Part shown: positions 7,594 through 12,313 of the stretch, piece by piece
Layout: each line of letters starts with the position of its first letter
Position numbering within the stretch: position 1 is the stretch's first letter
Assembly (NCBI GenBank): GCA_028714675.1
Contig: JAQTLV010000001.1
Location: 227,507 to 291,506, forward strand
Direction of reading: 5' to 3'
Length of the DNA stretch: 64,000 nucleotides
Source: Sulfurovaceae bacterium
Lineage (GTDB): Bacteria > Campylobacterota > Campylobacteria > Campylobacterales > Sulfurovaceae
Made by a program: the position numbers and the translations under genes
Notes under the pieces: model-generated
What the model saw: only the letters and a program-made list of their open reading frames with translations
The model's database searches: none
Told to the model about the DNA's origin: nothing

Positions 7594-9399
7594 ATGAAAT
7601 CTATTTTTGATATTTTTTCTAAAACAGTTACCACAAAAGTAAAACTAAATGCACCATATGGTATCCATTTAAGACCATGTGCTAAAATTGCAAGTATTGC
7701 CAAAAGTTATGATGGAAAAGTTTTTATTATTTCAGATAAAAATAAAGTAGACGCTAAGGATATGAATAAAATTTTAGCTCTTGGGCTAAAAGATGGTGAT
7801 GAAATATTGTTGAGCGCAAGTGGTAAAAATGCTAATTTGATAATTGACAAGATTGCCACTTTTTTATTAACATTGACAAATGAAAAAGATAACAATGTTA
7901 AAATAGAGACTACTAAATCATTTGATTTTGAAGGTAAAGCCACAAAAGGAACCACCATAAGTAGTGGCATAGCGATAGGGATTCCTTATCTTTGGCAAAA
8001 CAATTTTGAGTGCAAGATTGTTGACAATCAAACTTTTGACAATGCATACAGACAAACACTTGACGATTTGAACTTGATGAGTGACAATGATATATTTATG
8101 GCACAAAAAGCTCTACTTGAGACATTGCCAAGCAATTCATTTGAAGAGTTTAAGAGTGCTATAAAAGCTGTTATAACTTCACTTAGAGGAAGTGAACATG
8201 AAGCCAAGATAGCAGATTATAAAGATTTGCTAAATTCCATAAAAACAAATATGAGTGACACCAAAAATGTAGAATTTCCAAAAAATGATTTTATAGTTAT
8301 TGCAGATGAATTACTCCCAAGCGATATCCTGAAGCTTGCAGACTCTTCAGCCAAAGGAGTAGTTGTCAAAAATCTATCACCAAGAAGTCATGCGGCACTA
8401 TTGCTTAGAAGTCATAAAATCCCAGCCATCAGTATAGATAAGAATATAGAGAATATAAATGATACTGTCATACTAGATGCAACAAATGGACTTTTGGTTA
8501 TAGAGCCAAGTGAAGATGATTTAGTAAAAGCAAAAAAAGAGATAGAGAAAAATAGTAGTAGTGAGTTGTTGGATTTTAAAGCTAGATTTGAGGGTGCAAT
8601 CACAAAAGATGGTAAAAAAATAAAAGTACAAGCAAATATAGCAGATGTGCAAAGTGCAAAAGAGGCTTTGATGAGTGGATGTGATGGCATAGGGCTTTTA
8701 AGAAGTGAATTTTTATTTCAAAAAGAAAAGCCAAGCGTAGATGAACAATGCAGAGCATATGGTGAAATTTTTGAACTTTTCGATGAGGTGACCGTAAGAA
8801 CGCTTGATATCGGAGGGGACAAATCACTTCCATATATCAAATTAAACGATGAGCAAAATCCATTTTTGGGCATTAGGGGTGTGAGGCTTTTAAAAACTCA
8901 TAAAGATATTATTAGTGAACAACTTTTGGCTATTTTAAAAGCGAGTAGAAAGAAAGATTTAAAAGTAATGTTCCCTATGGTTGCAACTGTGGATGAATTT
9001 GTAGAAGCAAAAGAGTTGGCTCTTACTATAGCAAAAGAAAACAAGTTGAATTTAGATAATGTTAGTTTTGGCATCATGATAGAAGTACCATCGGTTCTAT
9101 TTTTGCTTGAAGAGTTCAATAAAGTTGTTGATTTTTACTCTATCGGTACCAATGATCTCTCTCAATACCTTTTTGCAATTGATAGAACGCACAATTTATT
9201 GAGTATAGATTCTCATTCAAGTGTGTTATATGATGCCTTGAAACTCATAGCTGATAAAGCTTTAAGACCTGTAAGTATTTGTGGCGAGCTTGCAAGCGAT
9301 GAAGAGGCTGTAAGTAGACTCATCAGCATAGGCATAGATACCCTTAGTGTACCATCTAAGATAGTACCGACAATAAAATCAAGGATTAGAGATATTTAG
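7594..9399 (+). CDS. ptsI: fused HPr-Enzyme I phosphoenolpyruvate-protein phosphotransferase
   Basis: 601 residues, two PTS modules in one chain. Residues about 11-95 are HPr, with the phospho-acceptor H25 in YGIHLRP. Residues about 115-601 are Enzyme I: swivel-domain H266 in SPRSHAALL, the PEP-site stretch RTLDIGGDKSLPYIK, NPFLGIRGVR, IMIEVPSVL, GTNDLSQYL and C563 in SICGELAS. It takes phosphate from PEP and passes it to an EIIA. NagF-type proteins carry an EIIA in front of HPr; here the ten leading residues leave no room for one. Its 3' end (9343-9399) reappears in decayed form upstream of nagE, see that entry. PTS genes are uncommon in this phylum. Confidence 0.92.
   Translation: MKSIFDIFSKTVTTKVKLNAPYGIHLRPCAKIASIAKSYDGKVFIISDKNKVDAKDMNKILALGLKDGDEILLSASGKNANLIIDKIATFLLTLTNEKDNNVKIETTKSFDFEGKATKGTTISSGIAIGIPYLWQNNFECKIVDNQTFDNAYRQTLDDLNLMSDNDIFMAQKALLETLPSNSFEEFKSAIKAVITSLRGSEHEAKIADYKDLLNSIKTNMSDTKNVEFPKNDFIVIADELLPSDILKLADSSAKGVVVKNLSPRSHAALLLRSHKIPAISIDKNIENINDTVILDATNGLLVIEPSEDDLVKAKKEIEKNSSSELLDFKARFEGAITKDGKKIKVQANIADVQSAKEALMSGCDGIGLLRSEFLFQKEKPSVDEQCRAYGEIFELFDEVTVRTLDIGGDKSLPYIKLNDEQNPFLGIRGVRLLKTHKDIISEQLLAILKASRKKDLKVMFPMVATVDEFVEAKELALTIAKENKLNLDNVSFGIMIEVPSVLFLLEEFNKVVDFYSIGTNDLSQYLFAIDRTHNLLSIDSHSSVLYDALKLIADKALRPVSICGELASDEEAVSRLISIGIDTLSVPSKIVPTIKSRIRDI
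9343..9399 (+). repeat. direct repeat, copy 1 (3' end of HPr-EI gene)
   Basis: The last 19 codons of the HPr-EI gene (Leu-Ser-Val-Pro ... Arg-Asp-Ile-stop). They match 10867-10923 at 44 of 57 bases by hand alignment, 33 of 39 over the last 39. The two copies flank the porin gene. Confidence 0.75.
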
Positions 9400-9450
9400 T
9401 AGAGTTGGACCTGAGCCCAAACTCTAAAGTAGAAAGTTTAAGAAATTTTC

Positions 9451-10722
9451 TTAGAAATTATATCTAGCAACAAAACGAAGTAAGTCAAAACCATTCTCAT
9501 AAGTATTGCAAGTAGATATATTTGCATATGTAGCAGTTAGGCTTATATCATTTGCAACATTTCTTGTATAGCTAAGATCAAATTCTTTTAAATCCTCATC
9601 AGAAGGATTTACACCATTATAATCTGCGCCTTTTGCTACACCATAAGCTGTGGAGATATTTCCGCCAAGCAAATCCATATTGGCAGCGACTTTATATTTT
9701 TTTACATTTATGCCAGTATCATATGGATAACGCAAATAGTATCCACTTAGTATTTCATCTGCTATCATATCAGTATAAAGTGGTGATGTGGTGCCACCTA
9801 CTTGATACATCCATCCATCAACTTTAGGGTCAATTACAGAATATGCCGCCATAAGATTTACAGGACCAACTGATGTTCCTGCTTTTATACCATATGCTTT
9901 CCAGTCACCATTACTATTTTTGTCGCTAAATGTTCCGCCTTGTAAACCTACATTGAAACTATCTGTATCATACGCAGCATCTGCCCAAAAAATTCTTGCA
10001 AAATCTCTAATATCATAATATGTTCCCGTAAGGGTTAAATTTTCTATAGATTTATTTTGAACTGTTAACATGTATGCACCATTAGCAACGCTATTAAAAT
10101 CATTTATATCATAAAAATAATCATACTCACTGAACCAATCATCTGAAGATGCTGTGCCATTTAAGTTCGCATTTTTTACATATGCAAGTGCTACTGTTGT
10201 GTTTGGAATATCATTATTTACAACAAGTGCCGCATCAAATGTGTTTTTAAATACATTCCAATCTTCAGAGTATGCAAATGGCGAAAGTGATTTTGGAAGT
10301 TCTTGACGACCAACTTTAATCGCTGTATTGCCAAATCCATAAGTTAGATATAGTTGAGAAACCCATCCACCATTCAATCCACTATCCAAGCTTTGCATAG
10401 GATAAGCTACTACATCTTCATCCAAACCAAGTGTTCCAATACCTGAAAGTTCTACGCCTACACCAACACCAGCAACTAAATCTTTGTTTACTGCTCTAAG
10501 TTGAATACCTGCATTTGCAGAAGCTGCTTCTTGATCAAAGAAATTAACATTATCTACTTTCATCGTTTGATAATAAAATACACCTTGACCACTAAATTTC
10601 CAACCGCTATCTGTTGCTGGAACCACAGCTGGAGTTTCTACCGCTGGTTCTACTGGAGCTATATCTCCACCCGCCATTAAAATTGATGATGCTACCATTG
10701 ATAACAATAAAGTCTTTTTCAT
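9451..10722 (-). CDS. outer-membrane porin (Campylobacterota Opr/MOMP-like)
   Basis: 423 residues from the ATG at 10722, which has an agggga site upstream; the open frame continues 54 codons further but those residues are not protein-like. The start MKKTLLLSMVASSILMAGG is a signal peptide. A Pro/Val/Ala-rich linker (about 20-42) follows, then repeated amphipathic strands with alternating aromatic residues, ending in ...LLRFVARYNF, the terminal aromatic required for BAM-dependent insertion. These features indicate a 16- to 18-stranded trimeric porin, though the specific family is not certain. It sits between HPr-EI and nagE on the opposite strand, so a role in outer-membrane amino-sugar entry is plausible but inferred only from position. 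Confidence 0.82.
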   Translation of the reverse strand: MKKTLLLSMVASSILMAGGDIAPVEPAVETPAVVPATDSGWKFSGQGVFYYQTMKVDNVNFFDQEAASANAGIQLRAVNKDLVAGVGVGVELSGIGTLGLDEDVVAYPMQSLDSGLNGGWVSQLYLTYGFGNTAIKVGRQELPKSLSPFAYSEDWNVFKNTFDAALVVNNDIPNTTVALAYVKNANLNGTASSDDWFSEYDYFYDINDFNSVANGAYMLTVQNKSIENLTLTGTYYDIRDFARIFWADAAYDTDSFNVGLQGGTFSDKNSNGDWKAYGIKAGTSVGPVNLMAAYSVIDPKVDGWMYQVGGTTSPLYTDMIADEILSGYYLRYPYDTGINVKKYKVAANMDLLGGNISTAYGVAKGADYNGVNPSDEDLKEFDLSYTRNVANDISLTATYANISTCNTYENGFDLLRFVARYNF

Positions 10723-10866
10723 TACTATTCCCCTACTTTGTTTTTTAATATAACAAAGTATATCAATATTGTTTATATATGTCAATAAAATTAACCAAAA
10801 GTAAATGTAAAAATAATAAATGTGCAAAAAGTAACACAATAAATGACAATTGTATGCCATAAATTT

Positions 10867-10923
10867 TTTAGTATAATATCCCAAATAGTTACGACAATAG
10901 AATCAAGGATTAGAAATGTTTAA
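10867..10923 (+). pseudogene. remnant of an HPr-EI 3' end overlapping the nagE start (direct repeat, copy 2)
   Basis: Read in one frame this stretch gives FSIISQIVTTIESRIRNV followed by TAA, against LSVPSKIVPTIKSRIRDI and TAG at the true HPr-EI C-terminus: 10 of 18 residues are identical and most others are conservative. The remnant stop lies inside the nagE start (ATGTTTAA, 10916-10923), so an HPr-EI gene once ended overlapping nagE. Homology fades upstream of 10867. The remnant now supplies the nagE ribosome site (aagga) and contains a TATAAT. Confidence 0.7.
10872..10877 (+). promoter_or_regulatory. -10 box for nagE
   Basis: TATAAT 39 bases before the nagE ATG, in the 193-base gap between divergent porin and nagE genes. 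No clear -35. It falls inside the decayed HPr-EI remnant. Confidence 0.45.
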
Positions 10924-12313
10924 TTTTTTACAACGCATTGGTAAAGCTCTCATGACACCAATAGCAGTTTTGCCAGTAGCGGCACTTTTGCTTCGCCTTG
11001 GATTTGGAGATATTTTTGATGGGCAGATAGCAATGATTGCTAAAGTAGCAGGGGATAGTATATTTAGCAATCTTGATTTACTTTTTGGTATAGGCATAGC
11101 ATATGGATTGGCTAAAAATAATGATGGTACGGCAGCACTTAGTGGTGCAGTTGGTGTGTTGGTAGCAAAAGCCGTTTATCTTGGAATTGACCCAAATCTT
11201 AAAATGGGCGTTTTTATCGGTATCATTATGGGTGTGATTGCTGGAAGTTTATATAATAGATTTCATGAGATTAAACTACCAGAATTTTTAGGATTTTTTG
11301 GCGGCAAGAGATTTGTCCCAATTGTCACAACTTTTAGTGCTATAGCAGTTGGTGTACTTGCTGGATATTTTTGGCATTATGCGGGAAGTGCAATAGATGG
11401 ATTTTCACATTTTATAATAGACCTTGGTGCTTTTGGTACTTTTTTGTTTGGGGTATTAAACAGACTTTTAATCCCACTCGGGCTTCATCATATACTAAAT
11501 AGTGTTTTTTGGTTTCAACTAGGTGAGTATAGTTATGTAAAAGACGGAGTTGTAACAGTTGCAAATGGTGATTTGCATAGGTTTTTTGCAGGAGATAAAA
11601 GTGCGGGTACTTATATGTCTGGTTTTTATGCTGTGATGATGTTTGGACTTCCTTTTATGGCATTAGCTATGTATCTTAGAACTCCTAAAGCAAGTAGAAA
11701 AAAAGTTGGCGCTCTTCTAGCTGGTGTGGCATTTACATCATTTTTGACAGGCATTACAGAACCATTGGAGTTTATGTTTATATTTGTTGCCCCTATACTT
11801 TTTGTTATTCATGCGATATTAACTGGGCTAGCTCTTGCTACTGCACAACTTTTGGATATTCATATCGGTTTCGGATTTTCTGCAGGACTTATCGATTTTA
11901 TTATCAATTATAAATTAGGTCAAAATTCTATTTTTATTATTCCACTTGGTTTGGTATTTGGATTGATTTATTTTTTTGTTACATATTTTGTTTTGGGAAT
12001 TTTCAAAATAAATATATTTAAAGACGATGAACAAGCAGATGTTATAGTGAATAATTGCGATATAACAAATGAGTTTATAAAAGCTCTTGGCGGAGCGGAA
12101 AATATAGTAGAAACAAGCTCTTGTATAACAAGACTTAGAATGAATCTAAAAGACAGTTCGCTTGTTAATGAAGAGATACTTAAAAGCTTGGGGGCAAGTG
12201 GAGTTATAAGACCAGATAAAAATTCATTACAAGTTGTACTTGGCTCAAAAGCCGAAAAAGTTGCATCGGATATAAAAGAGCAGTTAGCATATAATAAACA
12301 TATAAACTCATAA
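10916..12313 (+). CDS. nagE: PTS transporter subunit IICB, N-acetylglucosamine type
   Basis: 465 residues: an EIIC membrane domain of about ten segments (1-360) followed by an EIIB domain with the phospho-cysteine C403 in SSCITRLRM. EIIC motifs closely follow E. coli NagE: GLHHILNSVFWFQLGEY, FFAGDKSAGTYMSGFY, MFGLPFMALAMYL and TGITEPLEFMF. The protein imports and phosphorylates an amino sugar, most likely GlcNAc, at the cytoplasmic membrane. E. coli NagE ends in an EIIA domain, but this protein stops after EIIB and the HPr-EI fusion also lacks EIIA. Sugar specificity between GlcNAc and glucose is inferred from sequence resemblance. No nagA or nagB is nearby. Confidence 0.88.
   Translation: MFNFLQRIGKALMTPIAVLPVAALLLRLGFGDIFDGQIAMIAKVAGDSIFSNLDLLFGIGIAYGLAKNNDGTAALSGAVGVLVAKAVYLGIDPNLKMGVFIGIIMGVIAGSLYNRFHEIKLPEFLGFFGGKRFVPIVTTFSAIAVGVLAGYFWHYAGSAIDGFSHFIIDLGAFGTFLFGVLNRLLIPLGLHHILNSVFWFQLGEYSYVKDGVVTVANGDLHRFFAGDKSAGTYMSGFYAVMMFGLPFMALAMYLRTPKASRKKVGALLAGVAFTSFLTGITEPLEFMFIFVAPILFVIHAILTGLALATAQLLDIHIGFGFSAGLIDFIINYKLGQNSIFIIPLGLVFGLIYFFVTYFVLGIFKINIFKDDEQADVIVNNCDITNEFIKALGGAENIVETSSCITRLRMNLKDSSLVNEEILKSLGASGVIRPDKNSLQVVLGSKAEKVASDIKEQLAYNKHINS

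Follow-up and report, generated by a model that had tools for sequence, protein, structure and literature searches.

An operon in a Sulfurovum-like bacterium has very probably been split by the insertion of a porin gene, with both operon genes rescued by a short duplication of their overlapping ends. In the 64,000-nt stretch of DNA analysed here (the window), our reading of the sequence is that a porin transcription unit was inserted at the stop codon of the gene for an HPr-enzyme I fusion (HPr-EI, or EI), that the end of this gene was duplicated, that constraint was divided between the two copies, and that the relic copy probably became the promoter of the downstream gene, nagE. The split is known from one genome (1.75 Mb, of a Sulfurovum-like lineage; closest named record "Sulfurovum sp. 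enrichment culture clone C5"). Its anatomy, the ancestral gene order and the closest porin are observed directly, and from these we infer the route of insertion. The locus comprises the following features:

7594-9399, forward strand: HPr-EI fusion gene (phosphotransferase system, PTS, HPr plus enzyme I), with PF00381, PF00391 and PF02896; 79% DNA identity to the nearest relative, G003
9343-9399, forward strand: intact copy of the duplicated segment, the HPr-EI 3' end, identified by repeat comparison
9400-10866: inserted block of 1467 bp, made up of hairpin, porin gene and porin promoter region
9400-9426: hairpin TAGAGTTGGACCTGAGCCCAAACTCTA, directly 3' of the EI stop, with no T run on either strand; probably the terminator stem of the porin
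9451-10722, reverse strand: Opr-type outer-membrane porin of 423 aa, with NCBIfam matches NF033922 and NF033923 below cut-off and weak matches to the PDB porins 2y0h and 3t0s; ortholog at G003:C84:26632-27879
10757-10785, reverse strand: porin promoter TTGACA-17-TATACT, conserved with other porin units
10867-10923, forward strand: relic of the HPr-EI 3' end, 19 codons including the stop, with an 8-nt overlap with nagE
10872-10877, forward strand: candidate nagE -10 element TATAAT, produced by three relic changes from TGTACC
10905-10910, forward strand: ribosome-binding site of nagE, AAGGAT, inside the relic and the same in the EI-nagE overlap of G003, G001 and G010
10916-12313, forward strand: nagE, a PTS IIBC protein, of GlcNAc type by its best model (TIGR01998, 519 bits against a cut-off of 553), with PF02378 and PF00367

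The glucosamine-6-phosphate isomerase family PF01182 was not found in the window genome (G000), despite its GlcNAc-type PTS transporter and HPr-EI. A literature search on the PTS in Sulfurovum returned nothing, and Rfam gave no match at the EI/nagE junctions of the window or its relatives.

The two ends of the insertion carry the same stretch of coding sequence. An ungapped alignment of the HPr-EI end (9343-9399) with the DNA in front of nagE (10867-10923) shows 44 identical positions out of 57, and its best segment (9344-9398 against 10868-10922; 44/55, or 80%) scores 33, compared with a maximum of 18 among 60 dinucleotide shuffles; blastn gives E 1.3e-7 within the 64-kb window. This pair is the sole long direct repeat of the region, and a whole-genome search with the repeat returned two places at E < 0.1, with a third hit at E 0.67. 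In frame, the EI end reads FSIISQIVTTIESRIRNV and the relic LSVPSKIVPTIKSRIRDI, each followed by a stop, and the relic stop codon sits within ATGTTTAA at the nagE start. The initial annotation had described this 57-base match at 44 positions, and both its count and, on re-translation, its frame, stop and coordinates prove correct. Similarity to EI upstream of 10867 was not significant (left extension, p 0.10-0.51); a gapped extension of the relic drawn by eye, GCCATAAAT against GGCATAGAT, likewise lacked significance and was dropped.

The relatives preserve the earlier gene order. The ten other genomes of the genus all have an overlap of exactly 8 nt between HPr-EI and nagE (ATGTTTAA or ATGTTTAG), with no porin between the two genes. 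Across 58 distinct nagE loci drawn from the genus, the family and other Sulfurovum-like genomes, 47 show the exact 8-nt overlap and one more is nearly identical; EI lies upstream with a gap in five, and the compared DNA of a further five contains no EI. Among the genomes compared, the 1.47-kb porin unit separates the two genes in the window genome alone. Because relatives show the direct overlap without the porin, the porin at this place is derived, and the two genes were adjacent in the ancestor, the arrangement from which a split operon starts. It had been proposed from the window alone that an HPr-EI gene once ended overlapping nagE, and the relatives bear this out; none showed the opposite pattern of a porin ancestral at this place with a nagE leader lacking the similarity.

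Where did the porin come from? Positions 9440-10820 align at 83% to the porin unit C84:26632-27879 of G003, the last unit of a four-porin array between tRNA-Phe and pssA, and the two proteins are 85% identical in amino acids. In a porin tree, the window porin and the fourth G003 unit are sisters with support 100/100, and the pssA-adjacent porin of the window genome is the ortholog of the third G003 unit, not the fourth. DNA identity between the window genome and G003 is 84% for the porin, 79% for EI and 84% for nagE. The inserted gene thus originated elsewhere, as its array ortholog in G003 and the porin tree indicate, and an expected counterpart of the EI-nagE overlap in relatives, a porin located at another place, is found in that array. 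The fourth unit is absent from its G003 position and present at EI-nagE, which is most simply read as a move within the lineage, and the sequences suggest such a relocation. In the window genome the array is split over two contigs (C17 and C5) that have CCTGCAAA in common at their ends, so that a remaining porin copy in the array is possible. The source array is uncertain, with the ORF pointing to the tRNA-Phe array and the promoter resembling the TatD-array type. Tandem porin arrays lie at tRNA-Phe/pssA and beside tatD in relatives (L071:4469-9883, L072:6878-9482 and L073:4895-7563). Close genomes differ in the number and promoter type of their units, suggesting that the units often exchange sequence.

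The two copies of the EI end have since diverged in complementary ways. Polarised by the outgroups G003, G001 and G010, the 13 differences between the copies resolve into eight new states in the relic and five in the EI copy. All eight relic changes fall within nt 1-34, and the last 23 nt, including CAAGGATTAGAAATGTTTAA, are the same as in G003. Seven of these eight changes affect codon position 1 or 2, a pattern as expected for coding DNA that has been freed. The changes in the EI copy are AAA>AAG, GTT>GTA, AAT>GAT, GTT>ATT and TAA>TAG, of which two are silent and the other three lie in the last 9 nt, turning the nagE start ATG into ATA, TAA into TAG and N into D. The ancestral junction AAGGATTAGAAATGTTTAA is retained in the relic, and nagE therefore keeps its ribosome site and start. 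Each copy has thus preserved only that half of the earlier double role that is still in use. At nt 21, 27 and 30 the two copies have common states that occur in none of seven relatives, which favours a duplication on the branch leading to the window genome. A maximum-likelihood tree with an AU test on the short 57 bp did not separate the order of the duplication and the G003 split; since so short a tree is too weak, the timing rests on synteny and the three shared states.

The initial annotation also assigned the relic two functions in nagE expression. Its role as the nagE ribosome site is well supported by conservation in relatives, and a role as the nagE promoter is plausible. Transcripts from EI would meet the convergent porin, and nagE therefore very probably needs a transcription start of its own. 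Three of the eight relic changes create the TATAAT, 38 nt upstream of the nagE start and preceded by a T-rich stretch; the candidate -35, TTGTAT, located 16 nt upstream of TATAAT, is weak, and the TATAAT was not among the hits of a simple promoter scan, as TTGTAT matches the -35 at only 3/6 positions. When eight random relic changes were simulated, TATAAT arose in 5% of trials with even base use and in 11% with AT-rich base use, so that selection for it is suggested rather than demonstrated. Experiments show that promoters can arise this readily from non-promoter sequence, in which a few substitutions make a TATAAT; in one case no proper -35 was needed (Yona et al. 2018, PMC5906472). The relic resembles these cases in the few substitutions that lead to TATAAT in non-promoter sequence, and differs from them in that it derives, in a natural genome, from a duplicated coding end and the promoter is only a candidate.

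Taken together, we propose that HPr-EI and nagE formed one operon in the ancestor, joined by the 8-nt overlap, and that an entire porin transcription unit, originating in one of the porin arrays of the lineage itself, entered in antisense orientation at the EI stop, leaving about 57 bp of the EI 3' end on both flanks. The duplication would have let both overlapping genes survive, EI keeping its C-terminus and nagE its ribosome site and start codon. Constraint would then have divided, with the EI copy losing the nagE start codon and the relic decaying only in its upstream 34 nt. With an antisense gene now between it and the EI promoter, nagE would probably be read from the new TATAAT, divergently from the porin. 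For the inserting event, template switching with a step back, or a staggered break that took up the porin unit while being filled in, may tentatively be regarded as most likely, because the 57-bp flanking repeat comes without an element.

Could the locus have arisen in another way? A longer tandem duplication, of HPr-EI or of an EI-nagE block, followed by loss of most of the extra copy is a common route and would also place EI ends on both sides of the porin. We consider it improbable: EI similarity stops at about 57 bp, the DNA from 10723 to about 10820 is of the porin promoter type, leaving at most some 46 bp without an assignment, and the absence of any porin near EI-nagE in all relatives means that a separate porin insertion would still be required. 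The suggestion in the initial annotation that a second HPr-EI copy was deleted thus goes unsupported, with porin promoter DNA in place of further EI sequence. Less probable still is an origin of the block as an integrative or transposable element, whole or remnant, with the 57 bp as its target-site duplication. Elements that integrate at gene 3' ends do make the gene whole again with their own attachment site, leaving a copy behind at the opposite end, and insertions occur at this junction in other relatives, one of them with a transposase-like ORF. However, the 1.47-kb block at 9400-10866, whose sole ORF is the porin, contains neither a recombinase (transposase or integrase) nor terminal inverted repeats; moreover, 57 bp exceeds usual transposon duplications, and states unique to the window genome are common to both copies, as for a local copy. 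Transformation with DNA from another species, in which homologous recombination on the EI side brought in the donor's EI end along with the porin, would account for two diverged copies without a duplication event, but the nearest relative of the porin belongs to the nearest genome and has diverged about as much as the neighbouring genes, so no foreign donor is needed, and we hold this to be just as improbable as an element. The initial annotation had also put forward insertion of the porin block with a duplication, and an insertion of this kind, with a short duplication, is favoured.

Other sequences occupy the EI-nagE junction in some relatives. L091:4755-5000 and L103:4893-5000 (also L060) have inserts of 242 and 104 nt, respectively, flanked by the overlap repeats TAAGAAATGTTTA and AATGTTTAA. 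These two inserts have motifs in common, such as AACCCAGTGTTA and GGCTTTGCTCTATC, with no Rfam match; inserts of this type have four partial matches elsewhere in G059, and they are perhaps a small mobile repeat or RNA. L133:2900-5000 has an EI-nagE spacer of about 2.1 kb with a transposase-like ORF and small toxin-antitoxin-like genes, and L106:4430-5000 a 567-nt insert with an antisense gene resembling a response-regulator receiver. L103/G022 and L091/G059 resemble the window in having an EI-nagE insert with overlap sequence on both sides (9 and 13 nt), and differ from it in that their 104- and 242-nt inserts are unrelated to the porin and the repeat is much shorter. These overlap repeats make the pattern worth a genome-wide survey of split overlapping pairs for gene ends repeated beside inserts. 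It is conceivable, if rather doubtful, that insertions recur at the EI-nagE overlap and persist only where they bring or generate a repeat of it, that duplicated overlaps are a general signature of the splitting of overlapping operon genes, and that a duplicated coding end becomes the downstream promoter.

Overlapping genes are thought hard to separate, as insertion damages one or both. This locus points to an escape route, in which the overlap is duplicated, constraint is divided and a promoter is probably born in decaying coding sequence. This is ordinary genome evolution, yet unusually readable, and what stands out is that a duplicated overlap rescued both genes. As an operon split by insertion, the locus belongs to a known kind, of which it is a clear example. 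In the "life-cycle of operons" model, an inserted gene is said to separate a conserved operon pair, whose downstream gene must then gain its own promoter. The locus matches this model of operon splitting in that a conserved pair is separated by an inserted gene; it differs in that the genes overlapped, a short duplicated end saved both, and the relic is still readable.
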